DNA of 32,415 nucleotides from a virus: the IMG/VR virus record IMGVR_UViG_3300030329_004399, positions 1 through 32,415 of that record; one strand, given 5' to 3'. The notes under the pieces were generated by a model. It worked only from the letters and a program-made list of their open reading frames with translations. It was not told the DNA's origin and made no database searches. Of the stretch, positions 3,659 to 26,863 are shown one piece after another (position 1 is the first letter of the stretch; every line of letters starts with the position of its first letter). The position numbers and the translations under genes were made by a program.

Positions 3659-5379
3659 TGGCTGGTAAATTTATCTTTAATAAGAAAACAGGGAAATTAA
3701 AATTGAAGACCAATGCAAAAAGGTCTTACGGGGCGGTAATTTCTGATCAATTACAAGAGGGATGGACTGCCGCTTTAAGTAACGCCCACTCGGAATTCAG
3801 GGGTGGCATTGTCAGATTAAGAAATATGACAAGGGATCTGGAGCGATCCAATCCGTACGCAATTAGATTTCTGAACGAGTGGGTGACTAATATAGTCGGA
3901 ACTGGTTTTACTTTTCAATCTTTAGCAACTAATGCCCAAGGCAGAGAGGATGAAAATGCCCGCAATCAAATAGAAGAGGCGTGGCTAGATTGGAAGAAAG
4001 CAAGAAATTGCTGTGCATCTGGTGATATGCCTTACACCGAATTCAAAGGATTAAGTGAAAGAGCATGTGCAAGGGATGGAGGGGTATTGATTCAAAAGCT
4101 TAGAGGATTTGATAATAAGTACGGATTTGCTTTGAATGTATTAGAAATTGACAGACTGGATGTTGATTATAATGAGAAAAAGCTAAAAAATGGGAATCAG
4201 GTCATAATGGGGAAAGAGCTTGATCCTTACGGATGGAATAAACCAATTGCATATCATATACTTGGCGATCATCCCGGGGAAACCTATTCCAGAGCGGGGA
4301 GAACAAGAACAAGAATTCCTGCAGATCAAATCATACACAGATTTTATCGCAAGAGATTAGAATCAGCACATGGGGAACCTCTTATGGTCGGAGCGATTTC
4401 CGGACTGAGACATTTAGAAAAATTTGAAGAGGCGGAGCAAATAGCGGCAAGATTAAGTGCCTGTGCTACCGTTGCCATTGAAAGAGATAGTTCTACGCCT
4501 TACGAGGGAGAGGAATACTTAGATCAAGAATTGACCCCCGGGGGAAAATTTGAACTCGAGCCGGGAGAAAAAGCAACTTTACTAAATCCAACACATCCAA
4601 ATGCTAATTACGAAAGTTTTAGACGAGGAGTTTTACAAGGGGTAGCATCTGGATTGCTAACTAATTATCCTAATTTAGGTCAGGATTATGGAGGGGTTAG
4701 TTATTCTTCATTAAGGGAATCAAAATTAAATATCAAAGCTCTAACAAATGTTTATAGAGCATTAAATATTGAAAATGAGGAGGAGCATATTTTTAGGAGT
4801 TGGTTGGGATATGTATTACGGACAGGACAATTAAAATTACCCGCATCTAATTTTGAGAATTTAGCCAAGGGTAACTTTGTAGGGAAGGGGCATGAATGGG
4901 TAGACCCATTAAAGGATGTTAATGGATTAGAAAAGGAACTTTCAATTGGGGCCACTTCATTATCTAGGGCAGTAAAAGAAAGGTTAGGGGTTTCTTTAGA
5001 TGTAATAATTAAAGAAAGACAGCGAGATATTGAAGCATTTAAAAAGGCTGGGCTGGAAGTGCCGGCAATTTTAAAAGGTTCAGATTCAGATTCAGATTCA
5101 GATTCAGGTTCAGATTCAGAAGAAATTTCCTCATTACTAGGCGATTTAAAAGAGCAAGCCGATACTTATGGTGTAGGAGTAAGGGCGGGAATGGTAACCC
5201 CACAAACTATTGATGAACAGGATTTCAGAGAAAAGGCGGGACTCCCCGAAATGACAAAAGAAGCAAAAGAAGCTTGGAAAGAGGATGGAGGAATTAGGAG
5301 GCCAATAACTCTGCAATCGCAAAATGCCTTTGAATCCACACAGGATGAAATTGCTTCTGATCTATTAAATGAGGAATAA
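3658..5379 (+). CDS. Portal protein, lambda B family
   Basis: A 573-aa protein forming the dodecameric DNA gate at the capsid vertex. It shows the usual lambda-type portal course: basic N-terminus, NPYAIRFLNEWVTNIVGTGF (about residues 62-81), a VLEIDRLDVDYN segment, HRFYRKRLESAHGEPLMVGA, and GVASGLLTNYPNLGQDYGGV with SSLRESK. Length is typical. Near residues 475-495 there is an unusual serine-aspartate tract coded by a tandem hexanucleotide repeat, which ends the portal core and begins a charged C-terminal tail. The C-terminal codons carry the TGATCTAT box of the capsid promoter. Confidence 0.93.
   Translation: MAGKFIFNKKTGKLKLKTNAKRSYGAVISDQLQEGWTAALSNAHSEFRGGIVRLRNMTRDLERSNPYAIRFLNEWVTNIVGTGFTFQSLATNAQGREDENARNQIEEAWLDWKKARNCCASGDMPYTEFKGLSERACARDGGVLIQKLRGFDNKYGFALNVLEIDRLDVDYNEKKLKNGNQVIMGKELDPYGWNKPIAYHILGDHPGETYSRAGRTRTRIPADQIIHRFYRKRLESAHGEPLMVGAISGLRHLEKFEEAEQIAARLSACATVAIERDSSTPYEGEEYLDQELTPGGKFELEPGEKATLLNPTHPNANYESFRRGVLQGVASGLLTNYPNLGQDYGGVSYSSLRESKLNIKALTNVYRALNIENEEEHIFRSWLGYVLRTGQLKLPASNFENLAKGNFVGKGHEWVDPLKDVNGLEKELSIGATSLSRAVKERLGVSLDVIIKERQRDIEAFKKAGLEVPAILKGSDSDSDSDSGSDSEEISSLLGDLKEQADTYGVGVRAGMVTPQTIDEQDFREKAGLPEMTKEAKEAWKEDGGIRRPITLQSQNAFESTQDEIASDLLNEE
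5081..5119 (+). repeat. Tandem GATTCA hexanucleotide repeat in the portal gene
   Basis: About six copies of a 6-bp unit (GATTCA with one GGTTCA variant) encode alternating Ser-Asp. Simple repeats of this kind change copy number by slippage in steps of two residues without breaking frame. Confidence 0.85.
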
Positions 5380-5398: not shown

Positions 5399-7345
5399 AT
5401 GGAAACAGGATACCGTACATTCAAAGTAGATCGTTCTGATAATGGAGAAATACCCAGAGGAATTTTAACATCAGAACAACCCGTTGCTATGTGGGACTGG
5501 AAAAGGGGTGATTACATACCTGAGGTATTATTAATGTCGGGAATGAAGGCAAGAGGGCTGTCCATTAAATTACTCGACACACATAAAACAGATTCAGTAT
5601 CTTCAGTATTAGGATCATTCAGTGATTTAAAAATTAAATCAGCCGGGGAAAGAGAAGTTCCTTTTGATTTTGTCGAGGGAAAAATTGAAGTTTCATCTGT
5701 ACATCCTGAAGTTGAAACTAAATTACAGGAGGGGCATATAAATGAAATGTCAGTGGGATATAAATACACAGAAGATAAAACGATACATGTTCCTGAAGGG
5801 GAAAAATTAGAACATGATGGGAAGGAATACAGTGGCCCAATTAATTTAAGGACTGAATGGCATGCAGAAGAGGCTTCACTTGTGCCAATCGGGGCAGATT
5901 CACAAGCTCAGATTAGAGGGTATAAAGATTTTGAAGAAGCAAAAAAGATTTCACGCCAACCTAATAAAACCAAAAGCGAGCAAAGAGAGGTGACACTTTC
6001 TAATGCTGAAGCCAATGACAAGGTTAATCTGGAGGAAAAACGGGAAGGTGAGAAAACCCAAACTAAAACAACAAATTCAACAGAAAATAAATCCGATATG
6101 GAAGAAGAAAAAAAGGATGAGAATGTTGATGAACAAGTAGAGGTAGCCGTTAAAGCTACCAAGGAAGCATTTGACAAAAGGGCAGATGCAATCCTTGCTC
6201 TTGGTGAAGAAGTTGGAGACAGCAATTGGGCTCTCTCACAACTTCGTTCAGATAAGAGCGTTGAAGAAGTTCAAAGACAAGCCATCACAAAATTAAAAGA
6301 AGATTCTAAAAGTTTAGGATCTACACCTGAGCCACTTGGTCTCAGTAAGAAAGAAAGCAAATCTTACTCAATTGCCAATGCTATGAAAAGCTTGGTTAAT
6401 GGGGGAAGAGTTGAAGGACTGGAAAAAGAAGTTTCTGATGCTATTGCTAAACGCAGTGGAAGAGAAACACATGGATTTTTCCTCGCCTCTCAAAGAGATC
6501 TGAATATCACCGATGATGCCGCCCTTGTTCCAGAAGACACAAGAGGGGGAGACTTCGTTGATGCTCTTCGTCCTAATATGGTAACAATGCAAGCCGGTGT
6601 TCGTATTCTTAACGGACTAAAAGGCGATGTTGTTATTCCTAGAAAGACAGCAACTTCAGAAGCTACTTTTAAAGCTGAAACAACTATTCATACTGAAACA
6701 GAGCCAGTCTTTGATTCAATCAGTTTGACTCCAAGGCATCTTGGTACTTTCACCGATGTTAGTAAGCAACTATTAGCTCAAGGAACTCCAGATGTTGATG
6801 CTCTTATTAGAGACGATCTACAAAAGGCAGTTGCTGTTGGACTTGACAAGGCAGTTATTCAGGGCGCAGGTTCTGGATCAAATGCCCCACAAGGAATTAT
6901 TGGAGCAACAGGAGTTGAGGATATCGCAATTGGCGACAATGATGGGGGGGAGCCAACAACAGCTGAGTTGCATGCTTTCTTAAAACAGCTTGACGATAAT
7001 AATGCTTTAACAAGCAATTGTACATGGATAACAACCCCTCAAATCGCAGCGGCAGCGAAGCAAACTTTGCTAACTAGTGCTGTTTCTGGATACCAGTGGG
7101 ATATGTCCAATAATACAATGCTTGGCTATCCGGCATACAGCACTGCAAATATCCCTGCGGAAAGAACGATATTCGGAGATTTCTCTGAATATATTCTAGG
7201 AATATGGGATGGTGGTATTGAAATCACTTATGATCCATACAGTGGAGCAAAGAACAGATTGGTTACATTTATTCTAAATGTTATGTGTGACGGAAACGTT
7301 AGACAGCCTAAGTCATTTGCTGAATCTGATGATGGTTCCGCTTAA
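5399..7345 (+). CDS. Prohead protease-major capsid protein fusion (HK97 type)
   Basis: A single 648-aa chain. Residues about 1-175 are an S78-type prohead protease: LLDTHK with the catalytic His at 62, GHINEMSVGY with the Ser at 118, and TEWHAEEASLVPIGAD. Residues about 180-300 are a highly charged linker that would act as the delta/scaffold region. Residues about 305-648 are an HK97-fold capsid protein (LVPEDTRGGDFVDALRPNM, RKTATSEATFKAE, RDDLQKAVAVGLDKAVIQG, SNAPQGIIG, YDPYSGAKNRL). After assembly the protease would cut itself off the capsid domain. An internal ATG at about 6098 (SDMEEEKKDENVD) could give free capsid precursor. Own promoter upstream and strong hairpin downstream. Confidence 0.92.
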   Translation: METGYRTFKVDRSDNGEIPRGILTSEQPVAMWDWKRGDYIPEVLLMSGMKARGLSIKLLDTHKTDSVSSVLGSFSDLKIKSAGEREVPFDFVEGKIEVSSVHPEVETKLQEGHINEMSVGYKYTEDKTIHVPEGEKLEHDGKEYSGPINLRTEWHAEEASLVPIGADSQAQIRGYKDFEEAKKISRQPNKTKSEQREVTLSNAEANDKVNLEEKREGEKTQTKTTNSTENKSDMEEEKKDENVDEQVEVAVKATKEAFDKRADAILALGEEVGDSNWALSQLRSDKSVEEVQRQAITKLKEDSKSLGSTPEPLGLSKKESKSYSIANAMKSLVNGGRVEGLEKEVSDAIAKRSGRETHGFFLASQRDLNITDDAALVPEDTRGGDFVDALRPNMVTMQAGVRILNGLKGDVVIPRKTATSEATFKAETTIHTETEPVFDSISLTPRHLGTFTDVSKQLLAQGTPDVDALIRDDLQKAVAVGLDKAVIQGAGSGSNAPQGIIGATGVEDIAIGDNDGGEPTTAELHAFLKQLDDNNALTSNCTWITTPQIAAAAKQTLLTSAVSGYQWDMSNNTMLGYPAYSTANIPAERTIFGDFSEYILGIWDGGIEITYDPYSGAKNRLVTFILNVMCDGNVRQPKSFAESDDGSA

Positions 7346-7357
7346 TTAAATCTAATT

Positions 7358-7383
7358 GGAGGGGGGGTAACCCCCCCCTTTAA
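7358..7383 (+). terminator. GC-homopolymer hairpin after the capsid gene
   Basis: Seven G (7361-7367), a TAA loop and eight C (7371-7378), then TTT and AT-rich sequence. Flanking TAATT/AATTA can extend the stem. The U run is short, so this may be a partial terminator or mRNA 3' stabiliser that keeps capsid mRNA abundant. Confidence 0.7.
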
Positions 7384-7389
7384 TTAATT

Positions 7390-10611: not shown

Positions 10612-11688
10612 ATGGCAGTTCGTAAAAGTAGATTAGAAACCCAATTTACAGGGGATGATAAACAATTTCAAAGGGTAGCGGCTCGAGTAAAAGCCGCAGG
10701 GGCAAAAATGACGGCAATGGCGGGGTCAATGAAAGGGGCTTTTGGCGCAGTGGGGGGGACGATGTTAATTAAGGGGACATTAGAAAAATTTGATCGCATA
10801 GGGAAACTTTCAACCAGATTTGGTATAGCTTCTGAATCATTGCAAAGATTAGGACATGTGGCTAATTTAGGGGGGGCTGATTTAGAAACGGTTGCAAAAG
10901 GGTTAAGGACTCTAAATAAAAACGCCCACGAGGCGGCGGTGAATGGCTTAGAAACATACAATAGGGAATTCGAGATTTTAGGAATTGATGCCAAGGAATT
11001 CTTTATGTTAAACCATGAACAAAGATGGTTGGCAATGGGTGACGCTATAAGAGGGGCAACAAATAGGAATGTTGCAATGGCGGCATCACAAAAATTAATG
11101 GGCAGAGCCGGGGCGGAATTATTTGACATAATGGAGCAAGGTAGAGAAGAGCAAGAGGAGCAAATGAAATCAGTCCGCACTATTACTCAAGAGCAAACAA
11201 GACAAATTGAAGACCTCAACGATCATTTCTCTACTTTAACCACTGGAGCTTTGGCAGAATTTGCAGGGATGCTTGTTACAATCTGGGGATGGGTTAAAAA
11301 ATTAGGGGAAGCATTGGCATGGATGGGGATGCATTTACAAGCCGCCTTTGATCCAGATCTGGATTCTAGTGATGTAGAAAGATTTTTTGATGAATATCAA
11401 AAGGAACAGGAGGAGTTAGAAAAGAAAAGAAAGCAAAGAGATGAAGAAAGATTCAATCGTGAAGAGGGAGGACTAGAGGGTGTAGAAAGGAAAGCAAAAC
11501 AAGCCGCGAAAAAAATAGTAACCTCATTTTCTGGGGCATCAATGGGCGGATTTTTTGGGAATGCTGGAAGAAGTAGGGTATCCGCACGCGCTCCTAAATC
11601 ACTAGAACAAAAGCGATTTGAGTTAGAAAAAAGCCGTACTGAACAAATTAAATTTATGGCACAACAAATCAAAAGAGCTACGACGTAA
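10612..11688 (+). CDS. Tape measure protein, short
   Basis: A 358-aa protein with the composition of a tail tape measure: Ala/Gly-rich N-terminal helices (VKAAGAKMTAMAGSMKGAFG), LSTRFGIASESLQRLGHVA (about residues 71-89) and KGLRTLNKNAHEAA, a hydrophobic stretch (ALAEFAGMLVTIWGWVKKLG, about residues 214-233), then a long charged coiled coil (QKEQEELEKKRKQRDEERFN). At roughly 1.5 angstrom per residue this would set a tail of about 50 nm, so the virion would have a short siphovirus-type tail. Overlaps the next ATG by one base. Confidence 0.82.
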   Translation: MAVRKSRLETQFTGDDKQFQRVAARVKAAGAKMTAMAGSMKGAFGAVGGTMLIKGTLEKFDRIGKLSTRFGIASESLQRLGHVANLGGADLETVAKGLRTLNKNAHEAAVNGLETYNREFEILGIDAKEFFMLNHEQRWLAMGDAIRGATNRNVAMAASQKLMGRAGAELFDIMEQGREEQEEQMKSVRTITQEQTRQIEDLNDHFSTLTTGALAEFAGMLVTIWGWVKKLGEALAWMGMHLQAAFDPDLDSSDVERFFDEYQKEQEELEKKRKQRDEERFNREEGGLEGVERKAKQAAKKIVTSFSGASMGGFFGNAGRSRVSARAPKSLEQKRFELEKSRTEQIKFMAQQIKRATT

Positions 11689-12371
11689 TGCCGAAACCAG
11701 AATACAAAGGTAATAGTTCATGGAAGCAACAAAGGGGCACCTCATTTGGAACGGATGAAGAGGGGAAAGACTGGATTGAACTCACTTTCAGAGGCAAAAG
11801 TGATTTAGCTTTATCTTTTAGAGAGCAATACCCAAAGGGGACAGATTGTCCGGAGCCGGGATTTTCACATTGTAAGCTTCTCAGTCCTCCAGACATTGAA
11901 GAGGAAAGTATAGCTTTTTCGTATGCTATATTAAGATTTGAAGGGCCTAGCCCATTAAGCGGAACCTTTGAAGGGACTGATGCTACAATTGAACATTCTA
12001 CTCAAGAGGCGGATTTAATTTTTTCTACAAATATTAATAAAGAATTACTTACCGTAACATATAGATATCATAGAGTAATAGTTACCGCTTCCTATATTAA
12101 ATCCACTCGCCCAACCAGTACCAGATACAATTCCGAATTAGATAAACATGCAGAAGGTAATGGCATTTTGGAACCAATTGCCGATGTTAAAATACCATTA
12201 GGAGCACACCATTTTGAATTTATTAAAAATAACAAAGATAAATATTATGAAGTGGATCAGTGGAGTGTGGTGTCTAACTGGACAGAAACTGCCTCTGGCA
12301 TATATGAGGTAAAAGAAGAACATTCAAAATTTTTAACTCCTAAAGATGCCGACGTTCGGATAAATCAGTAA
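11688..12371 (+). CDS. Hypothetical tail tip-region protein
   Basis: A 227-aa protein, mostly predicted beta strands, with aromatic-rich C-terminal part (YEVDQWSVVSNWTETASGIY). Position directly after the tape measure suggests a distal tail or baseplate-like protein. No family recognised. The next gene starts at the base after its stop. Confidence 0.65.
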   Translation: MPKPEYKGNSSWKQQRGTSFGTDEEGKDWIELTFRGKSDLALSFREQYPKGTDCPEPGFSHCKLLSPPDIEEESIAFSYAILRFEGPSPLSGTFEGTDATIEHSTQEADLIFSTNINKELLTVTYRYHRVIVTASYIKSTRPTSTRYNSELDKHAEGNGILEPIADVKIPLGAHHFEFIKNNKDKYYEVDQWSVVSNWTETASGIYEVKEEHSKFLTPKDADVRINQ

Positions 12372-14333: not shown

Positions 14334-17173
14334 TGGCACATAAATTTATTATTGATGATAGAACGGGGGCTTTATATTCCGATTTTACGGCAAGACGAGT
14401 TACTTCTGCCGCAGAGCTTTTACAGGCTGAAAGAGGATTAACCCCAACATTTGAAATCTATTCCATTAATGTTGCTACTGATACCAGAGCGGTAACAGGG
14501 AAAACATTGACAAATGGCAATCTCTCTGTATCTATTGGACTCGCAGGGAAAGCCCCAGATAAAGGATTAATTAAAGCGGCATGGAGTGGAACTTCATACG
14601 AATCTGCATATCTAAATATTGAAAATCTAACAGCCTCCGCTCTTGCTTCGGCATTTAATAATTCAATAACAACCGTATCTAATGCCGGAGGATTGATGGT
14701 TGATGAACTCGGCGAGGGCAAATGGCTTCTGACAATGAAAAAAGTCGGAGCGATAACAGGATCTCCATCGTTAAATGTCGAAAGCTCAGATCCTCCATCA
14801 GCCGTTGAGGTTAATTCTGTAAGAACAGGAGACTCAGACACAAAGGCTCAATGGATCATCAACCTAATTCAATCCCCGGTCGCTAATATAGCAACAGGAT
14901 CATGGTCAAGCGCAACGAGCGGATCATATAGCGGACTCAGTTCGACCATTAGCCTCAATACAACGGCAATGCTTTCTGCAATTGCTCGAGGTCAGAGAGA
15001 CTTTGAGATTTCAATAGTTCATTCAGGTCAGGTTCTTCACCGATCATCTGTAAGCATTCACGAATCACTCGACCCAACGGCGGCAGGATCGATTGTAGTA
15101 ACCTCACCAACACTTTTCACATTAGGAAGCAACGCAGTTAATCAAGGCGAGACGATTGCCATTAGTGGCGGTCTTACTTATGACGGAACGACCCTAGCCG
15201 CGCCATTTTTGCCCTTGGCAGGTGGGACGATGACGGGGGCGGTTGCAATGGGAAGCCAGAAAATCACAGGCTTGGCAGACGGCACGGCAAGCGGTGACGC
15301 AATTAACAAGGGCCAACTTGACGGCCTTATTGACAATGCGCCAGAGGCTTTGAACACTCTCAATGAACTGGCGGCGGCATTGGGTGATGACGTAAATTTT
15401 AGCACAACAGTGGCGAATAATATCGCGACTAAATTGCCGCTGGCGGGTGGAACGATGACCGGGGCAATATTACACTCTTCGGGCAGTGCAAGCAATCCTT
15501 CAATTTCGTTTTCGAGTGATTCTGATAGCGGATTTTACTCAGACAGTGACGGTTCAATTGGTGTTTCATTTAATGCTAATATGCGATGGCACTGGACAAG
15601 TTCATTTTTCCGCACTGCCGCAACTTTAGGGGCTGAAATTAAATCGAGCGCGGGAACAGCCGCTAGCCCAAATTACAGATTTAGAGATGATAACAATACC
15701 GGAATGTTTCGGGTTGCGGCTGACCAGCTGGGTTTTTCAACTGGTGGAGTCGAGCGATTGCACTTATATGACGACGGATTTGATTTTAATAATTTATCAG
15801 TCAATTTCAAAGATAGCGGAGGAGATGGCCGCGCAACGATGGGGCTTGCATCTCAGCATTTCAATATCAATGTTTACGGAACCAGTGGCTGGATTAATAA
15901 CGCTATTAATATTGACAATGATACGGGGATGGTGGGTCTCTCAACTGCCACACCAACAGCAAACTTAGATATTACAACCAGCTTAAACCAACAACATTTG
16001 TATATTCAAGGCGCCCTTGACTCAGGTTCAACTGCGTTGGCTAGATTAAAAACTATCTCCAACGGGAATGTTTTGCTTTTGGAATCTGGGACAACGTCTG
16101 ATAGTCGAGAAATTTTTGATGTTAAAAATTCAAACGGAACGGTTTTTAAAATTCAAGGCGACGGAGCCTCAGTCTTCAGCGGTGCAGTCACCGTTGGCTC
16201 AGATGGTGCGGGCCATGTTTTAGATGTTCAAACCGGAACATCTGACGAAGGAATAAGGCTAACCTCGACAGGGACAGGGGGGCGAACGGTTTTTCAAGCC
16301 ATTGTGAACAACGTAGCAAATGGAAATGCGAATTTGAATCTTTACCATGCCACTGCGCTCACTACTAGAATCACCTCTGACCCATCAAACCCAACATTCT
16401 TTAATTCCGGGCCGGTCAATTTTGGCGCGGATGGTGACGGAAAAGATGTGACTTTTTACGGCTCAACGAGTGGTTCTTATATGCTATGGGATGAGAGTGC
16501 AGATGACCTAATTCTAGGCGGGGCGGCTCGTTTGGGAATAGGGACTGACAGCCCTGACACCACTCTTACCATTAAAAAAGACAACACGACAGGCCCGACT
16601 ATCAGCCTCGATAACTCAGAAAATAGAACTTATATAAATAATTGGGGCAGTGGGGTGACATCCGGGAGAGCTACTCGGCTTGAGATTAACGCGGCTACTA
16701 CTGATTTCGCAGTTGCCGCAAATAATATTTATTTCCAAATCGGAACTGTTGGCGATTCGCATGAAAAGATGCGCCTCGATTCGTCAGGAAATTTAGGCAT
16801 AGGGAATAGCAATCCAACCCAAAAAGTTTCGATTCAATTTGCTGATACTGACACATCGTTTTCCTCCGGCTCTGGCGGCGCATGGGGTTCTGAAGGCTTA
16901 CTAATTGAAAACACCAGCACAACCACGGACACGATGGCAATGATTCAGTTGCGGAATGGTGACGCGGATATTCATATTGCTGGAATTAGACAAGGCTCAG
17001 ACGATTCAGATTTAGGTTTCTTTTTTGAAGGGACGGAAAAGATGCGCTTTGATAAAGATGGTGATGCTGAAATTAAAACAGATGGCAAAGGATTAATTTT
17101 GTCATCACCTGATGGAACTCGATATAAAATCACCGTTGCAAACGATGGAACTGTTACCTCAACAGCCATGTAA
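14333..17173 (+). CDS. Tail fibre protein
   Basis: A 946-aa host-recognition protein. It carries two phage fibre repeats with the LPLAGGTMTGA signature (near residues 296-306 and 368-378) joined by KITGLADGTASGDAINKGQL, then long stretches of trimer-forming repeats such as MRLDSSGNLGIGNSNPTQKV and RLGIGTDSPDTTLTIKKDN. It ends with SSPDGTRYKITVANDGTV and has no obvious S74 chaperone domain, so trimerisation would not involve C-terminal self-cleavage. From about 14500 to 17150 the DNA is visibly richer in G+C than the flanking genes, a sign of modular exchange. Confidence 0.85.
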   Translation: MAHKFIIDDRTGALYSDFTARRVTSAAELLQAERGLTPTFEIYSINVATDTRAVTGKTLTNGNLSVSIGLAGKAPDKGLIKAAWSGTSYESAYLNIENLTASALASAFNNSITTVSNAGGLMVDELGEGKWLLTMKKVGAITGSPSLNVESSDPPSAVEVNSVRTGDSDTKAQWIINLIQSPVANIATGSWSSATSGSYSGLSSTISLNTTAMLSAIARGQRDFEISIVHSGQVLHRSSVSIHESLDPTAAGSIVVTSPTLFTLGSNAVNQGETIAISGGLTYDGTTLAAPFLPLAGGTMTGAVAMGSQKITGLADGTASGDAINKGQLDGLIDNAPEALNTLNELAAALGDDVNFSTTVANNIATKLPLAGGTMTGAILHSSGSASNPSISFSSDSDSGFYSDSDGSIGVSFNANMRWHWTSSFFRTAATLGAEIKSSAGTAASPNYRFRDDNNTGMFRVAADQLGFSTGGVERLHLYDDGFDFNNLSVNFKDSGGDGRATMGLASQHFNINVYGTSGWINNAINIDNDTGMVGLSTATPTANLDITTSLNQQHLYIQGALDSGSTALARLKTISNGNVLLLESGTTSDSREIFDVKNSNGTVFKIQGDGASVFSGAVTVGSDGAGHVLDVQTGTSDEGIRLTSTGTGGRTVFQAIVNNVANGNANLNLYHATALTTRITSDPSNPTFFNSGPVNFGADGDGKDVTFYGSTSGSYMLWDESADDLILGGAARLGIGTDSPDTTLTIKKDNTTGPTISLDNSENRTYINNWGSGVTSGRATRLEINAATTDFAVAANNIYFQIGTVGDSHEKMRLDSSGNLGIGNSNPTQKVSIQFADTDTSFSSGSGGAWGSEGLLIENTSTTTDTMAMIQLRNGDADIHIAGIRQGSDDSDLGFFFEGTEKMRFDKDGDAEIKTDGKGLILSSPDGTRYKITVANDGTVTSTAM

Positions 17174-20040: not shown

Positions 20041-20405
20041 AATATTTACTATTATTTTGGATTCTTTGCATTAAGGCAAATGCAGATGATCATTGGGGCG
20101 CTCCTCCTCCTATCCCAGAGTTACAGATAGCTCATTTCCCGGCGATGGGAGTAATAGAAATAAGTTGGATAAGTGACAGTACCTTTGATAAACCTATTTG
20201 GTTTTTATTGGAAGTGAAACAGGTTAATCCCGAAAATGGGAAACCTGACCCCAATGAAAAATGGCATAGGCCATTCAATCCACTTCAGGGGACTAATTTC
20301 AATGAGAGGGTTACTCTTAATCTCAGTTATAGAAATGCCGCAGGGAATATACAATCTTGGTTCAATGCGGAGATGATTCGCATTCGTGTAATGTGGGGAG
20401 CTTAA
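20037..20405 (+). CDS. Secreted hypothetical protein
   Basis: A 122-aa protein with a signal peptide (MKYLLLFWILCIKANA, likely cut after ANA at residue 16) and a Trp/Pro-rich mature part (DDHWGAPPPIPELQ; VIEISWISDSTFDKPIWFLL) that looks like a fibronectin/Ig-like strand pattern. It would act in the periplasm or outside the cell. Last gene of the + strand block; its TAA overlaps the stop of the convergent XRE gene in the shared TTAA at 20402-20405. No terminator lies between them. Confidence 0.65.
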   Translation: MKYLLLFWILCIKANADDHWGAPPPIPELQIAHFPAMGVIEISWISDSTFDKPIWFLLEVKQVNPENGKPDPNEKWHRPFNPLQGTNFNERVTLNLSYRNAAGNIQSWFNAEMIRIRVMWGA

Positions 20406-20575
20406 TTATCTTGCAATTCCGTCCTTAATCTTTTGATGGCTAAGAAAGCCTCTTTTGTAATCCTATATGCCCCTGTTTCTCTTTTAGAAATAGTAGCTTT
20501 ATCAACTTCCAATTCTTTTGCCACTTGCGCTTGAGTGCCGATTTCTTTTCTCAATTTAGTGTATTCTTTATTCAT
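20402..20575 (-). CDS. 57-aa XRE/Cro-type HTH protein
   Basis: Reading from ATG 20575-20573 gives MNKEYTKLRKEIGTQAQVAK then ELEVDKATISKRETGAYRIT, the classic lambda-Cro/XRE arrangement: helix 2 (TQAQVAKEL), turn, recognition helix (DKATISKRE) and GAYRI. It is a short Cro-like regulator, too short to be called by length-filtered gene finders. Its ATG overlaps the stop of the upstream (frameshifted) gene as ATGA at 20572-20575. It is the last gene of the - strand block and lies tail-to-tail with the late operon, so it could dimerise and repress early or control late promoters. Family assignment is strong; targets are unknown. Confidence 0.85.
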   Translation of the reverse strand: MNKEYTKLRKEIGTQAQVAKELEVDKATISKRETGAYRITKEAFLAIKRLRTELQDN

Positions 20576-20882
20576 ACCTTTTCTATTAAAATTGAACCAT
20601 CCTTATTCCAAAAAATTTCCGCCTCACTTTTTCCATCCTGAGTGATTCTGTTATACTTATCCAAAGCGATTTGAAATTTTGGATAACTGAATTTTGCCCA
20701 CATTTGAAGATCCTGCAAAAACATCTTATCTCTTTCCTCATCAATCTTAACCGGGGCAGGATCATCTGGGATTTGTGAATAAGGTTGCCGTTAGCGTCTT
20801 CGTACATATCAACGCCAGCGTCACTTCTGGGCTTTATGTCGTTAGCCTCTGCCATTTCTTTAATTTCAATTTCTGTTTTCAT
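20572..20882 (-). pseudogene. Hypothetical gene split by an apparent -1 frameshift
   Basis: From ATG 20882 the first frame reads MKTEIEIKEMAEANDIKPRS, then GVDMYEDANGNL, after which protein-like sequence stops. In the -1 frame, open from 20790 to the TGA at 20574-20572, it continues convincingly: IPDDPAPVKIDEERDKMFLQ, then DLQMWAKFSYPKFQIALDKY and EAEIFWNKDGSILIEKV. The switch must lie between 20790 and about 20770. The zero frame runs on to 20586 with Arg/Cys-rich out-of-frame-looking sequence. No classic slippery heptamer is visible in the window, so an indel (real or sequencing error) is the simplest view. The -1 reading ends in a natural ATGA overlap with the XRE gene. Confidence 0.7.
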
Positions 20883-20900
20883 AGTTAGTTTTTTTATTTG

Positions 20901-20925
20901 TGCCAGGGGTGGAACCTAGCGGGTT
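20901..20925 (-). ncRNA. T-arm-like hairpin element, copy A
   Basis: On the - strand AACCCGCTAGG, loop TTCCACC, CCTGGCA. A 6-bp stem GCTAGG/CCTGGC encloses a 7-nt loop. Copy B at 22092-22116 has the same element with A-U replaced by G-C in the stem, a compensatory change. It starts 2-5 nt after the stop of the 20928 gene and lies about 20 nt before the ATG at 20882. Confidence 0.65.
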
Positions 20926-20927
20926 AA

Positions 20928-21551
20928 TTATTTTTTAAACTTCTTAATAAAAGCTTTTAGTTCTCTTACCTCTTGCTTTGCGTCCGGCTCTTTTTCCTCA
21001 AGCGCCCAGCAGTTAACGTGACCATCTTCGTAATAAGTGGACAGCATATATTCAGCTTCACTAACTGGAAATTCAGCGGGGTAGTCTTTCCAGGTTTCCA
21101 TTCCGTCATCTACGGAAAGTTCCTCTAACTTGCTTTCCAGGCAGTAAGGGATTTGTTCAACAATTTTAGAAGGCATGAGGCTGGGCTTTTTCTCAATGGG
21201 CTGTTCTGATTCTTCAAATTCTTCAAACGCTTCTTCATAAGTTTCAAACTTAACAAGTTTTTCTGAACATCCTTTATTCCAATCAATCAGGCGAACCTCT
21301 TTACCATCTTTGCGAGAAAAAATACCAAGACTTGTTTGCACTTGATAAACTCCAGCAATATAACATCCCTTTCCAAAAACCTTTTGTTCAAGTCCGTATC
21401 TCAAGATTCTCTCTAGCACTTCAAGAGGATTGGTTTTTATTCCATTCAGCAATTCAATTGGCACTTCTAGCCTTGCCTCATAGTTATTAAATGGACGAAC
21501 CTTTTTATAGGCTTTCCAGAAGAAATTAATAATAGTCATTTTTTGTTTCAT
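20928..21551 (-). CDS. Hypothetical protein, early region
   Basis: A 207-aa protein I do not recognise. Residues about 20-105 form a mixed fold with YEARLEVPIELLNGIKTNPL and a GKEVRLIDWNKG strand; the middle (110-130) is very acidic (YEEAFEEFEESEQPIEKK), and the C-terminus is basic. No membrane segment. It has its own promoter with TAATAT six bases before the ATG, so the mRNA is probably leaderless. Other in-frame ATG (residue 5) exists. Confidence 0.7.
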   Translation of the reverse strand: MKQKMTIINFFWKAYKKVRPFNNYEARLEVPIELLNGIKTNPLEVLERILRYGLEQKVFGKGCYIAGVYQVQTSLGIFSRKDGKEVRLIDWNKGCSEKLVKFETYEEAFEEFEESEQPIEKKPSLMPSKIVEQIPYCLESKLEELSVDDGMETWKDYPAEFPVSEAEYMLSTYYEDGHVNCWALEEKEPDAKQEVRELKAFIKKFKK

Positions 21552-21585
21552 GTAGATATATTATCATTTTATTCCTAATAAACAA
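21552..21585 (-). promoter_or_regulatory. Early promoter, leaderless layout (gene at 21551)
   Basis: On the - strand TTGTTT (21585-21580), 16 nt, TAATAT (21563-21558), then ATCTAC and the ATG. The sequence from TGATAATAT through the ATG (TGATAATATATCTACATGAA) is identical to that before the gene at 22997. Confidence 0.7.
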
Positions 21586-21662
21586 TCCTTTTCTTTCATT
21601 ATTTTACTTTTATCAATATAGAATAATCCATTAACTCTTTTAAATTGCCGATATTGCCCCAT
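21564..21662 (-). CDS. Possible 32-aa peptide
   Basis: ATG 21662-21660 to TGA at 21564 encodes MGQYRQFKRVNGLFYIDKSK and 12 more residues with normal phage-like composition. It sits between two small genes of the early region. Length alone gives little support and there is no Shine-Dalgarno; listed because neighbouring micro-ORFs overlap genes in the ATGA style. Confidence 0.35.
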   Translation of the reverse strand: MGQYRQFKRVNGLFYIDKSKIMKEKDCLLGIK

Positions 21663-21682
21663 ATTTGGCCGAGAAAGAGGTT

Positions 21683-21735
21683 AAAGGAGGTTCCCCACTC
21701 CACAATAGGAAACCCCCTACCCCGTTAAATACGAG
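21683..21735 (-). other. GC-rich potentially structured spacer
   Basis: On the - strand GGGGTAGGGGGTTTCC, GGAGTGGGGAACCTCC contain nested complementary segments (GGAG/CTCC; GGTTTCC/GGGAACC). A partly similar stretch (GTGTGGGGAGAACCC) occurs before the 30-aa reading frame at 23110. Could be a translational control structure; weak evidence. Confidence 0.3.
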
Positions 21736-21744
21736 GATTTTACC

Positions 21745-21822
21745 CTACCTTTTCGGTGAACTAACTGCGAAAAATCGCAGAATAAGGATTATAAATAAAA
21801 ACCAAAGGATTAAAAAGATCAT
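21745..21822 (-). CDS. Possible 25-aa membrane peptide
   Basis: ATG 21822-21820 overlaps the stop of the 21819 gene as ATGA. It codes MIFLILWFLFIILILRFFAV followed by SSPKR, an almost ideal single membrane segment. ATGA overlap is the normal coupling in this operon, which supports translation. A perfect 6-bp hairpin (CTGCGA/TCGCAG, 21768-21783) lies inside it. Confidence 0.45.
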   Translation of the reverse strand: MIFLILWFLFIILILRFFAVSSPKR

Positions 21823-22076
21823 TTTGTTTTGATTATTGGATTCCCTTTATCAATAAATACCCATGCCATTTTACTATCAGCAATAATCCCTCCGATTAGT
21901 TCCCCCTCCCAGTCCAATACTTTAAGTAATGAAAGAGAGGCAGAGGCATGATTTTTTTCACCACTCAATCGGTGATCGTATGGGTATGTCTTTTTAAATC
22001 CGCCGGAGGTCTTTGCTATAATTCTTGATCCTCTATGATCAGTAGGCCCAAGGAATGATGTTATAATTGATTGCAT
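21819..22076 (-). CDS. Hypothetical early protein
   Basis: An 85-aa protein (MQSIITSFLGPTDHRGSRII start) with AKTSGGFKKTYPYDHRLSGE and SLLKVLDWEGELIGGIIADS. It reminds of small phage proteins that begin with a translation-like SFLGPTxxRGSRI segment. I recall this type as a common small phage protein of unknown role. Preceded by T-arm-like element B and a run of A before the ATG. Confidence 0.7.
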   Translation of the reverse strand: MQSIITSFLGPTDHRGSRIIAKTSGGFKKTYPYDHRLSGEKNHASASLSLLKVLDWEGELIGGIIADSKMAWVFIDKGNPIIKTK

Positions 22077-22091
22077 TTTTTTAGTAGATTA

Positions 22092-22116
22092 TGCCGGGGA
22101 TCGAACCCAGCGGGTT
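22092..22116 (-). ncRNA. T-arm-like hairpin element, copy B
   Basis: On the - strand AACCCGCTGGG, loop TTCGATC, CCCGGCA: a 6-bp stem closing the 7-nt loop UUCGAUC, which fits the tRNA T-loop consensus (UUCRANN). 21 of 25 bases match copy A, with one compensatory pair change. It starts just after the TAA of the gene at 22119 and lies about 16 nt before ATG 22076. No acceptor or other tRNA arms are present. Confidence 0.7.
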
Positions 22117-22118
22117 GA

Positions 22119-22358
22119 TTAGTATTGGACGTAAATGTCTGCCAGTGCGTTAAGCTCCTTAATTACGTCTGTTTTGTTTTTAAGATTCAAAACAGTAATT
22201 TTATGTTTGATGGGTTGGAAATCGGCATCTTCAGTACCGTTGATTTTAATTCTTTCCTTAACTTTTTTCATACTGGAATGATAAGAAAAAGATAAGTCTT
22301 TAGTATCATTAAATCGGCAATCAGTTACTGAATAGCTGTGTAGTTCGTATATTTTCAT
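22119..22358 (-). CDS. Hypothetical early protein
   Basis: A 79-aa protein, mixed charge, with MKIYELHSYSVTDCRFNDTK at the start and a helical C-terminus (NKTDVIKELNALADIYVQY). Unknown family. Its ATG follows hammerhead ribozyme 1 by about 20 nt with an A-rich stretch and no Shine-Dalgarno. Confidence 0.7.
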   Translation of the reverse strand: MKIYELHSYSVTDCRFNDTKDLSFSYHSSMKKVKERIKINGTEDADFQPIKHKITVLNLKNKTDVIKELNALADIYVQY

Positions 22359-22379
22359 TTTTTTTGTAGGTTTAATTTT

Positions 22380-22438
22380 TGATCTATCTCGTCAGTGCCA
22401 GTAGATCAACTCTGACAGACCCCGAAGGGTTTCGATTA
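22380..22438 (-). ncRNA. Hammerhead ribozyme 1, type II
   Basis: On the - strand all core bases of the hammerhead are present in circular order: C then GAA (G12-A14), stem III A-CCC / loop UUCG / GGG-U, C17 at 22418, stem I UGUCAG / loop AGUUGAUCUA / CUGGCA, CUGACGA (C3-A9), then G of stem II. Stems I and III are closed by loops, so stem II is open (type II). Stem II is short: GAU/AUC, an A-A mismatch, then G-U. Predicted cut between 22418 and 22417. The stem I loop UGAUCUA can pair with UAGAUCA just downstream. The element begins at the stop codon of the 22436 gene. Confidence 0.88.
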
Positions 22439-22672
22439 GTTAATTTTTTTGAATTGTTGAATAATTGGTTGTATTTCAGATTTATCAAACCACCCAATTT
22501 TAACTTGGGCGCAAATAAAAGACGTAAAAGATAGAATAACATCTTCACCTCTTAAATATCCTGTTTCCACTGAATCCACTTCAACCTGTTTCCTAGCTAA
22601 ATACTGGTAATTATAAATAGCATGAACGACATCATGATTAACGGTTTTGAATGTAATTAGTTCTCTGTTCAT
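22436..22672 (-). CDS. Hypothetical early protein
   Basis: A 78-aa protein (MNRELITFKTVNHDVVHAIY, then NYQYLARKQVEVDSVETGYL) of unknown family, between the two hammerhead ribozymes. The TAA stop at 22436 is part of the 5' strand of stem II of hammerhead 1. The ATG follows AACCTACCGAAAAA, similar to the leader of the 22119 gene. Confidence 0.7.
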   Translation of the reverse strand: MNRELITFKTVNHDVVHAIYNYQYLARKQVEVDSVETGYLRGEDVILSFTSFICAQVKIGWFDKSEIQPIIQQFKKIN

Positions 22673-22702
22673 TTTTTCGGTAGGTTATTTTTGTTTTAAT
22701 TC

Positions 22703-22763
22703 TGATCTATCTCGTCAGTGCCGTGGAATCATTCACGACAGACTCCCGAAGGAGTTTCGATTA
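22703..22763 (-). ncRNA. Hammerhead ribozyme 2, type II
   Basis: Same core as copy 1: C-GAA, stem III A-CUCC / UUCG / GGAG-U, C17 at 22741, stem I UGUCGUG / AAUGAUUC / CACGGCA, CUGACGA, G and the conserved GAUAGAUCA tail. Stems I and III differ in sequence from copy 1 but stay fully paired, so they covary. Predicted cut between 22741 and 22740. The stem I loop UGAUU can pair with downstream GAUCA. It begins at the stop codon of the 22761 gene. Confidence 0.9.
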
Positions 22764-22997
22764 ATTGGTAGTGCCGGAAAAATTCACTGGAATATCAATG
22801 TAATTTCCTGTACCGAACACTGTTAAAAAGGCTTCCCCATCTTCATTGAAAGCTACTTCCAAATCTTTGATTTTATATTCTGTTTCCGTGTATCCCCATT
22901 CTCCAGTAAAAGGATTACACTCAGGTTTCTTAATCGTAATAGAGGTTGCGATGATGGGGCTATTCTCGTCAATTTGGGCAATATTTTTTTTCTTCAT
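22761..22997 (-). CDS. Hypothetical early protein
   Basis: A 78-aa protein with MKKKNIAQIDENSPIIATSI, a GEWGYTETEYKIKDLEV segment and a strand-rich end. It looks like a small beta protein. First gene of the ribozyme-separated set; own leaderless-type promoter with TAATAT six bases before the ATG. Function unknown. Confidence 0.7.
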   Translation of the reverse strand: MKKKNIAQIDENSPIIATSITIKKPECNPFTGEWGYTETEYKIKDLEVAFNEDGEAFLTVFGTGNYIDIPVNFSGTTN

Positions 22998-23031
22998 GTA
23001 GATATATTATCAACATATCAGCCAATGACAA
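22998..23031 (-). promoter_or_regulatory. Early promoter, leaderless layout (gene at 22997)
   Basis: On the - strand TTGTCA (23031-23026), 16 nt, TAATAT (23009-23004), ATCTAC, ATG 22997. It would start the transcript that contains both hammerheads. Confidence 0.72.
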
Positions 23032-23110
23032 GAGCAAATGTCAAAATAATGAAAAAAAGCCACAATAGTGTTAAATGGGCAGGAAAAGACCTACCAAAAC
23101 CTGCCGTCAT
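23018..23110 (-). CDS. Possible 30-aa membrane peptide
   Basis: ATG 23110-23108 to TGA 23018 codes MTAGFGRSFPAHLTLLWLFF followed by IILTFALVIG: one membrane segment. GGGGAGAACCC just before the ATG could serve as ribosome binding site. It lies between XapX and the promoter at 22998. Support is modest. Confidence 0.4.
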   Translation of the reverse strand: MTAGFGRSFPAHLTLLWLFFIILTFALVIG

Positions 23111-23150
23111 GGGTTCTCCCCACACTCTATTCTAAAGTGACTAGCTATAA

Positions 23151-23303
23151 TTAGATCATAGAAATCAGCTTAAATCCAATATAAATACCTATTATTCCCA
23201 TGATCCCCGGCAATTCTGGAGGGGCAGGAATTGGCAATTTAAATGAGGCAAAAATAGCCCCAACCGTCATGCCTGTAACTAAAGCTAAAAGAATCATTAT
23301 CAT
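23151..23303 (-). CDS. XapX domain membrane protein (50 aa)
   Basis: ATG 23303-23301 overlaps the queD stop as ATGA. The 50-aa product has two membrane helices (MIMILLALVTGMTVGAIFAS and GIMGIIGIYIGFKLISMI) joined by the signature FKLPIPAPPELPG, matching the small XapX/DUF1427 family in length and motif. It is the last gene of the deazaguanine operon. Function of the family is unknown; its coupling to queD suggests a membrane role linked to precursor supply, which is inference. It is too short for length-filtered gene calling. Confidence 0.85.
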   Translation of the reverse strand: MIMILLALVTGMTVGAIFASFKLPIPAPPELPGIMGIIGIYIGFKLISMI

Positions 23304-23647
23304 TTTCTTTCCCATACAGCCCCACAAGTATCCGTTTCCCTTATTTCTATTCTATAGAGTCCCGGCAATTTAGATTTTAATTCAAGATAAAACCATTCAA
23401 CTATCTTTTCAGATGAGGTCACTTCAATCCAATTATTCAAGTAGGTATGATCAAACTTTTCAATGATTGGATTCACCACTTTTTTAATATCAGCGAAATC
23501 CATAATCATTCCTGTCGCATCATCTGGTTCCCCTTCAATCTCAATTCTTAGATGATAATTATGACCATGAATTTCAGAGCATGGATGCCCCTCAATTAAT
23601 AAATTATGAGCCGCACAAAATTTAAACTCTTTAAATGCTCTTATCAT
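23300..23647 (-). CDS. queD: 6-carboxytetrahydropterin synthase QueD
   Basis: A 115-aa enzyme turning dihydroneopterin triphosphate into 6-carboxytetrahydropterin in preQ0 synthesis. Zinc ligands are visible at H14 (FCAAHNL) and H28/H30 (EIHGHNYHL), with catalytic C23. TSSEKIVEWFY and the C-terminal IEIRETDTCGAVWE with the pterin-binding Glu are in place. Length is typical. ATGA overlap with queC upstream and XapX downstream. Confidence 0.95.
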   Translation of the reverse strand: MIRAFKEFKFCAAHNLLIEGHPCSEIHGHNYHLRIEIEGEPDDATGMIMDFADIKKVVNPIIEKFDHTYLNNWIEVTSSEKIVEWFYLELKSKLPGLYRIEIRETDTCGAVWERK

Positions 23648-24264
23648 TTTTCAATAGTGGCTAAAGCTTCGGCTCTTTCAACACATGATCCACATTTACC
23701 ACAAGGTTCTTCACCCCCTTCATAACATGTCCATGTCATATCAAATGGCACTTTTAGCTCATGCCCCAATCTGGCAATCCATCCTTTATCAAATTCAACA
23801 AAAGGCGTTAATAATTCCAATTGCTTCCAATCACAAAGACTCAAAGCAACTCGCATAGCTTCAACAAATTCAGTTCTGCAATCTGGATAGATAGCATGGT
23901 CACCGGCATGGCATCCATAAGCTAAACAATCCTTGTCTTTAGCAATGGCAATTGATGCCGCATGAGCAATCATTACCATGTTCCTATTAGGAACTACTGT
24001 TTGCTTCATCGATTCCTCCGCATAATGACCATGAGGAACATCACCGCTTCCCGTTAATGCTGATCCAGATAACTGAGGTATCTCAACAATTGAATGCTCA
24101 ACACTCAAAAGAGCGCAAATGTTTTTAGCTGAATCAATCTCCCTTTTATGTCTTTGATTATAATTGAAACTTACAGCTTCAACGTCATGCCCTGAGGCTC
24201 TTAAATGATAGAGAAGGACTGTTGAGTCCAACCCTCCTGAATATATTAGTAATGTCTTTTTCAT
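23644..24264 (-). CDS. queC: 7-cyano-7-deazaguanine (preQ0) synthase QueC
   Basis: A 206-aa ATP-dependent enzyme that converts 7-carboxy-7-deazaguanine to preQ0. The PP-loop SGGLDS lies at residues 9-14; the C-terminal zinc site CYEGGEEPCGKCGSC (C180, C188, C191, C194) is intact. It is plain QueC with no glutaminase/amidotransferase fusion, so the pathway would stop at preQ0 rather than the G+ form. ATGA overlaps with folE and queD. Confidence 0.96.
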   Translation of the reverse strand: MKKTLLIYSGGLDSTVLLYHLRASGHDVEAVSFNYNQRHKREIDSAKNICALLSVEHSIVEIPQLSGSALTGSGDVPHGHYAEESMKQTVVPNRNMVMIAHAASIAIAKDKDCLAYGCHAGDHAIYPDCRTEFVEAMRVALSLCDWKQLELLTPFVEFDKGWIARLGHELKVPFDMTWTCYEGGEEPCGKCGSCVERAEALATIEK

Positions 24265-24812
24265 AAATTCAATAAGTTAAGTATCTCCTGTCTAGGATTA
24301 GTTTGTTTTCTAAATTCACCCCTCATTACGGAGGTTATCATTTCCCCATCTTTTTTAATTCCTCTGCATTTCTGGCAGGTATGAACACCTCTCACTATTA
24401 CAGCAACCCCTAATGGATCAAGAGCATCTTCAATAGCATCAGCAATTTGTGCCGTCATTCTTTCCTGAGTTTGAAATCGCTTGGAATAAACATCAACAGT
24501 TCTAGCCAATTTACTCAATCCCACAATCCCATCCCGTGGAATATAGGCGACATCGGCAGTTCCAAAGAAAGGAAATAAATGATGCTCACAAAGCGAATTA
24601 AATCCAAGTCCCCTTGATATAACTATTTCATCATGAGGGACATCAAAAATAACATCTAGTTCAGGATCTTCATTATATCCCTCTGCCATTTCTTCAATGG
24701 CTCTTTCCCATCGCAATAAAGCGTCTCTAGGGCATTCATCTGGTAATTCTACAGTATGTTCCATAATTTGTGCAATTGGATTGATAGTTTCCATTCTGGG
24801 TTCTGTTTGCAT
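24261..24812 (-). CDS. folE: GTP cyclohydrolase I FolE
   Basis: A 183-aa enzyme, first step from GTP to dihydroneopterin triphosphate. Zinc ligands: C75 in SLCEHHLFPFFG with H77/H78, and C146 in HTCQKCRG; also GLSKLAR and RFQTQERMTAQIA. The ORF start overlaps queE by 64 nt; inner ATGs at 24794 and 24761 are alternatives. The longer form supplies the N-terminal helix expected ahead of the LLRWERAIEEMAEGY segment, so I keep 24812. Confidence 0.94.
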   Translation of the reverse strand: MQTEPRMETINPIAQIMEHTVELPDECPRDALLRWERAIEEMAEGYNEDPELDVIFDVPHDEIVISRGLGFNSLCEHHLFPFFGTADVAYIPRDGIVGLSKLARTVDVYSKRFQTQERMTAQIADAIEDALDPLGVAVIVRGVHTCQKCRGIKKDGEMITSVMRGEFRKQTNPRQEILNLLNL

Positions 24813-25330
24813 AGCTCAATGCAATATTGAACATTCAAATCATTAATATTATTACCGTCACAAATGGGCGATAAATATTTATGTGATGCCTTCGCCCCCG
24901 GTTTGGGAACGGATTTTTTAGTTCTATGCCAAGCATATCTTAGTTCATCCAGACCATCGGGAAAATTGCGAGCCACTACATGCTCTGCAACTTTAGGAGA
25001 ACAAACAACCCAATCCAATTCATCTTGAAATGATACCTTGTGATTGCCATTGGTTTCAATCGACTGTTTAAATCCAGCCTCCTTAAATTTCCTTACTGTT
25101 TCTTCCATTAGTTGCATCATTGGTTCGCCTCCAGTCCACGTTACCCATTCTGCAGGATAATTTGATACCTCTTTTAAAAGGGCATCATCAGTCATTTCTA
25201 GGCCACTCTCAAACTCTGTATCACAGAATCCGCAAGCTAAATCACAACCCGCCAATCTTATAAAAACGGTAGGTTGTCCTGCACGGTATCCCTCCCCTTG
25301 CAAGGAGTAGAATATTTCATTTATTTTCAT
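24749..25330 (-). CDS. queE: 7-carboxy-7-deazaguanine synthase QueE
   Basis: A 193-aa radical SAM enzyme making 7-carboxy-7-deazaguanine. The 4Fe-4S motif CDLACGFC (C29, C33, C36), SLQGEG substrate segment near the N-terminus, WTGGEP (residues 65-70), VVCSPK, and the terminal KLSIQLHKLWNI all match the family. Its start overlaps the dpdA stop by 14 nt. Confidence 0.95.
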   Translation of the reverse strand: MKINEIFYSLQGEGYRAGQPTVFIRLAGCDLACGFCDTEFESGLEMTDDALLKEVSNYPAEWVTWTGGEPMMQLMEETVRKFKEAGFKQSIETNGNHKVSFQDELDWVVCSPKVAEHVVARNFPDGLDELRYAWHRTKKSVPKPGAKASHKYLSPICDGNNINDLNVQYCIELCKQNPEWKLSIQLHKLWNIL

Positions 25331-26288
25331 TATCTTTTTTTAGTTTTTTGTATGTATCTTTTTGGGCTCTCATTTGATGATTTAAATTATGGTAAGCCCT
25401 TCCATATTTTTTCTCTGATCTAAATTTTTCCTCTTCTTTCAAATTTGGATGATATCTCGGATCAATATTATGCTCTCCTAAAATGAGACAAGCGGCACAA
25501 TCGCAAGGAGGGGCTTGGCATTCGCTCTCAACATGAATTAAAAAATCTTCTTTTGGTTCATCCAGAGGTTGTGAACAATCATATTCCTCAAGTCTGCCAT
25601 TTTCATAATAAGTATATACCCCAAATAAAGCCTTTTGTAAATAGGAACTGCCATCCACGGAATCAATTCCAATTCTGCACCATTCCTTATAGTAAGGGAT
25701 TGAAGTAATCCCCAAAACATGAACCCATGTATCAGATGGAACCTCTTTCCTCACCGCCGTAACTAAATCAATTATAAATTTGCTCTCAGTAGATCGCCCC
25801 GCAATCCCTCCCACGGCAAGATGCTTATACCCCAGATCAATCAATTCCTGTGCTTTGGTTACCCTTTCTTCAATGCTCATTCCATGCACTGCCGCCATTG
25901 GTATTAATTCATCTGGACAATCATCAATAAATCTTTGTGCCTGTTCATAATTCCATTTTCGGCGAAAATCAAAATCAACCCCCGGTATTAACATGTGATC
26001 GGGAGCAATAACAAAACTCCCTGCATTGCATTTTTCTTTATAGGTTACAGAAATAGATTTTGAATCAATGGGAGGTATTTCCATTTCCCTATAAGTCCAA
26101 CCTCCGCAATCATATAGTACAAACTGTTCTTCTGGGATTTCCCTATGATAATGTAATGAATTCAACCAACCGTCAACTTCATCAACGAGTTCATGCCATT
26201 GAATGCCAGTCTTTTTAATAGACCCTTTGTCCCAGACATTATGAGCCGTTACTGGAAAAAACTTAGTCCTCTTCATTCCATAATTCAT
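25317..26288 (-). CDS. dpdA: DpdA-type 7-deazaguanine DNA transglycosylase
   Basis: A 323-aa homologue of tRNA-guanine transglycosylase that in phages exchanges guanine in DNA for a 7-deazaguanine. Visible features: APDHML (D97), PMAAVHGMSIEERV and LAVGGIAG (about 130-164), HVLGITSI, GIDSVDGSS (candidate nucleophile D209), zinc site CDCAAC (C262, C264, C267) with H300 in YHNLNHQMR. The neighbouring preQ0 genes and lack of tRNA-specific context support the DNA rather than tRNA role. A second ATG (26276) is possible. The C-terminal 20 residues are very Lys-rich. Confidence 0.92.
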   Translation of the reverse strand: MNYGMKRTKFFPVTAHNVWDKGSIKKTGIQWHELVDEVDGWLNSLHYHREIPEEQFVLYDCGGWTYREMEIPPIDSKSISVTYKEKCNAGSFVIAPDHMLIPGVDFDFRRKWNYEQAQRFIDDCPDELIPMAAVHGMSIEERVTKAQELIDLGYKHLAVGGIAGRSTESKFIIDLVTAVRKEVPSDTWVHVLGITSIPYYKEWCRIGIDSVDGSSYLQKALFGVYTYYENGRLEEYDCSQPLDEPKEDFLIHVESECQAPPCDCAACLILGEHNIDPRYHPNLKEEEKFRSEKKYGRAYHNLNHQMRAQKDTYKKLKKDNENK

Positions 26289-26577: not shown

Positions 26578-26863
26578 TGCTCAGATCAATAATATCATTA
26601 ATTTCAGGTTTCATTTTTTTTATTCTATTAATTAATGTCCTCAACATTCGTCCATCCTCTTGTAATCTTGAAAAATCCTTTCCATTTACTTTAACATTAC
26701 AATAAGGGGATTGTATACCGGTTGCTGACATTTCTATTAATCCTATAAAATAATTCTCATCAATATTTGCTTCGCACCAGAACATCCCCGCTTCAATCGT
26801 TGACTTGTTTTTATTTTTCAACCAATCGTGATACTCCCAGTTACTGCAATGATTACTTGGCAT
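26558..26863 (-). CDS. Hypothetical protein
   Basis: A 101-aa protein (MPSNHCSNWEYHDWLKNKNK start) with a CNVKVNGKDFSRLQEDG strand-turn segment and a helical end. ATG 26863-26861 forms a TGATG overlap with the stop of the PD-(D/E)XK-like gene; an upstream TTG would add one residue and is unlikely. Family unknown. Confidence 0.65.
   Translation of the reverse strand: MPSNHCSNWEYHDWLKNKNKSTIEAGMFWCEANIDENYFIGLIEMSATGIQSPYCNVKVNGKDFSRLQEDGRMLRTLINRIKKMKPEINDIIDLSNGVDAI

Follow-up and report, generated by a model that had tools for sequence, protein, structure and literature searches.

On an uncultured tailed-phage contig (the window, meaning the whole 32,415-nt stretch of DNA analysed), two consecutive minus-strand spacers of a gene cluster (22435-22359 and 22760-22673) each contain one complete type II hammerhead ribozyme, and other gene boundaries of the same cluster carry a T-loop hairpin. 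The best explanation, which we consider probable, is that these are two kinds of mRNA-boundary element, with the hammerheads cutting a shared mRNA and the T-loop hairpins marking mRNA ends without catalysis. Both ribozymes add to an established class and are arranged in a way already described, while the new part is the conserved T-loop hairpin mixed with hammerheads at equivalent positions; we found no earlier report of T-loop or tRNA-mimic hairpins in phage mRNAs in the open literature, outside which most subscription journals lie. The positions of the features are collected in Table 1.

Table 1. RNA elements, genes and likely transcription starts in the gene cluster.
Feature	Positions	Strand	Remarks
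Likely start of unit 1	22985..23031	-	promoter-like TTGTCA-16-TAATAT (23031-23004) overlapping 28-nt repeat (23012-22985)
Gene A	22761..22997	-	78 aa
Hammerhead 1 (type II)	22701..22763	-	after gene A; takes in UAA stop 22763-22761; found by RF02276, pattern and structure
Hammerhead 1, stems	22761-22759/22711-22709 (II); 22755-22751/22746-22742 (III); 22740-22734/22725-22719 (I)	-
Hammerhead 1, other parts	22718-22712 (core); 22741 (C17); 22731-22727/22707-22703 (pseudoknot)	-	predicted cut between 22741 and 22740
Gene B	22436..22672	-	78 aa; between the two ribozymes
Hammerhead 2 (type II)	22378..22438	-	after gene B; takes in UAA stop 22438-22436; found by RF02276, pattern and structure
Hammerhead 2, stems	22436-22434/22388-22386 (II); 22430-22427/22422-22419 (III); 22417-22412/22401-22396 (I)	-
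Hammerhead 2, other parts	22395-22389 (core); 22418 (C17); 22409-22403/22385-22379 (pseudoknot)	-	predicted cut between 22418 and 22417
Gene C	22119..22358	-	79 aa
T-loop hairpin T1	22093..22121	-	after gene C (stop UAA 22121-22119); stem 22111-22106/22098-22093; loop UUCGAUC 22105-22099
Gene D	21819..22076	-	85 aa, phrog_3199; a T-loop hairpin precedes this gene and the L125 homologue
Likely start of unit 2	21539..21566	-	second copy of 28-nt repeat (93% identical), at start of gene E
Gene E	20928..21551	-	207 aa
T-loop hairpin T2	20902..20930	-	after gene E (stop UAA 20930-20928); stem 20920-20915/20907-20902; loop UUCCACC 20914-20908
Gene F	20586..20882	-	98 aa
Gene G	20402..20575	-	57 aa; weak match to helix-turn-helix repressor families

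Two type II hammerhead ribozymes and their relatives

An initial annotation of this DNA had placed two type II hammerheads in consecutive minus-strand spacers, and its positions and strand, the core (C-GAA, A15.1/U16.1, C17, CUGACGA), the sequences of the stems and the predicted cut sites all agree with those found here. A cmscan search of Rfam matched the Hammerhead_II family (RF02276) at 22762-22701 with 46.5 bits (E 1.2e-6), which exceeds the curated gathering cut-off of 37 bits, whereas the match at 22437-22378 scored 35.0 bits (E 1.2e-3) and thus falls 2 bits under it. The pattern CGAAAC-N-GTC-N-CTGANGA was matched twice in the window, compared with 0/100 dinucleotide-preserving shuffles. 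The invariant core (C3-U4-G5-A6-N7-G8-A9, G12-A13-A14, A15.1/U16.1 and H17) is present in both copies, loops close stems I and III, and stem II is open. The two ribozymes lie 323 nt apart on the coding strand of the phage gene cluster, where they flank single genes.

Stem III reads ACUCC/GGAGU in hammerhead 1 and ACCC/GGGU in hammerhead 2, with a UUCG loop capping both, and stem I reads UGUCGUG/CACGGCA and UGUCAG/CUGGCA, respectively; both stems vary between the copies, in length as well as sequence, with their pairing kept, so that the covariation claimed initially holds. Stem II has only 3 bp (AUC/GAU), and its first A doubles as the final base of the UAA that ends the upstream gene; stems II of as few as 2 bp have been reported as common, and a pseudoknot between loop I and the 3' tail has been described for the majority of type II hammerheads (PMC3088659). 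The initial description, sound for the ribozymes themselves, had missed this pseudoknot, which is possible by sequence in both copies (UGAUU/GAUCA, 5 bp, in hammerhead 1 and UUGAUCU/AGAUCAA, 7 bp, in hammerhead 2). In hammerhead 2, a pseudoknot-blind fold favours a competing nested hairpin between the pseudoknot strands (-15.5 kcal/mol, versus -10.4 kcal/mol for stems I and III), and thus activity probably depends on the pseudoknot, the loop I/tail duplex of which amounts to about -7.4 kcal/mol; given this hairpin, hammerhead 2 may be slow or conditional. Taken as predictions, the covariance model match, the compensatory differences and the pseudoknot support the type II identity of both copies.

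A strict type II pattern was matched in at least 120 IMG/VR stretches. Among the matches listed there were 118 strict hammerheads in 67 loci, with more than one in 25 of the 67 and a maximum of seven per locus; single phage loci with five to seven type II hammerheads include L055, L007 and L112. Again among the matches listed, the start of the hammerhead was no more than 8 nt from a stop codon ending an ORF of 40 aa or longer in 83/118 cases, compared with 127/2360 random positions, and location of the stop codon within or next to stem II therefore appears to be general among these phage ribozymes.

T-loop hairpins at other boundaries of the gene cluster

The initial account of the cluster, correct for the hammerheads, was incomplete, because other gene boundaries carry the T-loop hairpin, which is not a hammerhead. 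The spacer after gene C contains AACCCGCUGGGUUCGAUCCCCGGCA (T1) and the spacer after gene E contains AACCCGCUAGGUUCCACCCCUGGCA (T2). Both hairpins have a 6-bp stem, which begins 7 nt 3' of the stop codon, and a loop of 7 nt (UUCNAYC); the stems differ in one pair, which is G-C in one hairpin and A-U in the other. Two other readings were considered and rejected: a tRNA gene or fragment, as in ARAGORN searches the T arm was enclosed by neither a cloverleaf nor an acceptor stem and there was no Rfam tRNA match, and an intrinsic terminator, as no more than four T follow the stem within 10 nt in 41/42 of the copies collected. Elsewhere in the window, a very strong hairpin (GGAGGGGGGGUAACCCCCCCCUUU, plus strand 7346-7389, spacer fold -24.8 kcal/mol) follows a 648-aa gene (5399-7345), and is probably a terminator or mRNA barrier.

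The small minus-strand genes likely form two transcription units, A-hammerhead-B-hammerhead-C-T-loop-D and E-T-loop-F-G. The 28-nt repeat is common to the starts of genes A and E, and promoter-like matches as a class were no commoner in the window than in shuffles. Within these units, every gene boundary longer than about 40 nt holds an RNA element whose start coincides with, or closely follows, the stop codon of the gene upstream, and an A-rich leader, by sequence devoid of a Shine-Dalgarno motif, is left between that element and the next ATG. Genes A, B and C have no convincing protein family match, gene B and the DpdA-like gene have no close relatives among viral contigs, and no DNA similar to 20200-24900 was found in cultured phages. 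On the minus strand at 23300-26288, QueD-, QueC-, FolE- and QueE-like genes lie beside the TGT/DpdA-like gene, a set by which the phage likely modifies its own DNA with 7-deazaguanine.

The T-loop pattern was present in 53 viral stretches in a scan of IMG/VR and in 0/863 bacterial genomes from three phyla. The T-loop hairpin has no Rfam match, relatives scanned with Rfam gave no matches at gathering score, and short-query BLAST with two T-loop elements produced nothing convincing among cultured phages; a similar lone hairpin in a Streptomyces phage is weak by the hairpin model (25.1 bits). Altogether 42 distinct copies were collected, with uncultured phages as the source of almost all; their stems are 5-13 bp long and made of varied pairs. 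These copies were selected for both pairing and nearness to a stop codon, and their figures for pairing and position are consequently not independent evidence; likewise, the covariation count of the alignment is strongly positive for copies that had been pre-selected for stems of 5 bp or more. The position of the element is better judged from 40 distinct exact-pattern matches chosen without regard to position, 30 of which lie no more than 14 nt after a stop codon, versus 8.4% of random positions. Of five matches in which the two free positions of the pattern are unpaired, four are away from a stop codon, and pairing of these positions goes with stop proximity (Fisher p 0.01). Position 57 of the loop is not limited to purines (C 24, T 3, G 8 and A 7 among the 42 copies), with the share of C and T inflated because one search pattern demanded either of these; T2 of the window and the copy at L125:7504 were found without this demand, and T1 has a G at this position.

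The contig L125 is a syntenic relative of the window (phosphoesterase 56% identical, several other genes homologous), and has six intergenic T-loop hairpins and no hammerhead. Three of its spacers without a T-loop hairpin carry a 142-nt promoter-like repeat (4545-4686, 6119-6260 and 6617-6758), two copies of which hold GGGAGC(A/G)AUCCC, a possible small hairpin, followed by an A-rich leader and ATG. Another relative, L130, has a different repeated spacer hairpin (GGGGUG-UUAAC-CACC, at 11609-11651, 11949-11989 and 16993-17048), so the same role may fall to other loop families as well. Among 20 hammerhead or control phage records, a strong T-loop model match was found only in a 94-kb contig (L188/G017), in which the hairpin (26783-26813) lies about 62 kb from a weak type II hammerhead match (89125-89182, 25.2 bits). 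Both elements in one gene cluster were seen in the window only, and hence the argument for a shared role is one of position.

Possible roles of the boundary elements

The initial annotation also proposed that the ribozymes cut a polycistronic early mRNA, which suits the layout of the cluster and is not new in kind, as Perreault et al. 2011 (PMC3088659) had already proposed that clustered phage hammerheads split transcripts into mRNAs of one gene each; the word 'early' remains presumptive. By analogy, the hammerheads probably cut the shared mRNA of neighbouring small genes into single-gene pieces. Judging from the class, a hammerhead with no ribosome on the stop codon would fold with its loop I/tail pseudoknot and cut after C17, leaving the upstream mRNA with a 3'-terminal hairpin that has a UUCG cap and a 2',3'-cyclic phosphate, and the downstream mRNA with a 5'-OH ahead of the stem I hairpin. 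Both capped ends may act in mRNA stability, and the decay and dosage of each small gene would be uncoupled. The stop codons in or beside stem II suggest that a terminating ribosome may block cleavage, which would then be gated by translation termination. At the equivalent position, the T-loop hairpin would mark an mRNA end as a barrier or as a site for a host or phage factor, not as a ribozyme. More specifically, we tentatively suggest, with some doubt, that these hairpins represent a previously undescribed type of element at phage mRNA boundaries. They would follow closely on stop codons within polycistronic operons, be recognised by a factor for RNA processing or decay, of host or phage origin, and serve with no catalysis the purpose that hammerheads serve in other phages; the window phage would then be one with both kinds in one gene cluster.

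The foremost alternative is that the T-loop hairpins are unrelated to the hammerheads and are binding sites for phage or host proteins, or processing sites for tRNA enzymes (RNase P, RNase Z), that are clustered with them by chance. While the resemblance to a T loop, with C56 and A58 conserved, fits such sites, most stems, at 6-8 bp, fall short of the 12 bp in the acceptor/T-arm stack of a tRNA and there is no conserved CCA-like 3' end; and although most phages with one kind of element are without the other, both kinds in the window occupy the same place relative to stop codons within the same cluster. We consider this alternative unlikely, though it has more in its favour than those that follow.

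A further possibility is that the hammerheads are real and that their main effect is on translation or the timing of expression, with structure after the stop codon halting run-on ribosomes and the bare A-rich leader letting new ones start, and with the T-loop hairpin acting likewise without cutting. Only 5/43 window genes have an upstream Shine-Dalgarno motif, many T-loop hairpins end 15-17 nt upstream of the next ATG, and their surroundings are A/C-rich with 6% G, all of which would suit a function in translation, and for the T-loop hairpin a role in translation of the downstream gene is the main rival reading. However, neither a conserved catalytic core nor a pseudoknot would be required of a mere structure, cleavage is on record for published arrays of this kind (PMC3088659), and the tight spacing could stem from short spacers alone; we consider this explanation of the cluster as a whole improbable. 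That one or both hammerheads are decayed, inactive relics is very improbable: the score of hammerhead 2 and its competing hairpin would be in keeping with decay, but neither copy has lost any base of the core, and relics would not keep the compensatory stem differences.

If hammerheads and T-loop hairpins are indeed two kinds of mRNA-boundary element, the mixed cluster provides a natural comparison for the role of phage ribozyme arrays, which we did not find settled since the 2011 report: should ribozyme and T-loop boundaries yield identical RNA ends, or an identical pattern of stability, the job of the ribozymes would be to define mRNA units. The T-loop hairpin is in itself a defined and testable RNA element outside Rfam.

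Comparison with known RNA elements

The T-loop hairpin shares with the T arm of tRNA a UUCNAYC loop of 7 nt and the G-C pairs that close its stem, whereas it differs in having no tRNA around it, in a position 57 that goes beyond purines, in the range of its stem lengths and in its intergenic location. Stable UUCG hairpins occur in the intercistronic regions of phage T4; these and the T-loop hairpins are both stable hairpins between phage genes, with different loop families.

Type II hammerheads are common in bacteria (Perreault et al. 2011, PMC3088659). The window copies resemble the RF02276 class in the core, the closed stems I and III, the open stem II, the possible pseudoknot and C17 as the predicted cleavage site, and nothing essential differs, the departures being the one score just below threshold and the short stem II. 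Published clusters are found in prophages of Agrobacterium tumefaciens (ardA), Azorhizobium caulinodans and Clostridium scindens, and the arrays flank single phage genes, with three cleaved in vitro and one in E. coli (PMC3088659). The overlap of stop codon and stem II was measured here, the term 'stop codon' being absent from Perreault et al. 2011 (PMC3088659). Both the published arrays and the window have several ribozymes in neighbouring spacers of a phage operon, while T-loop hairpins at the other boundaries of the same cluster are the window's own feature.
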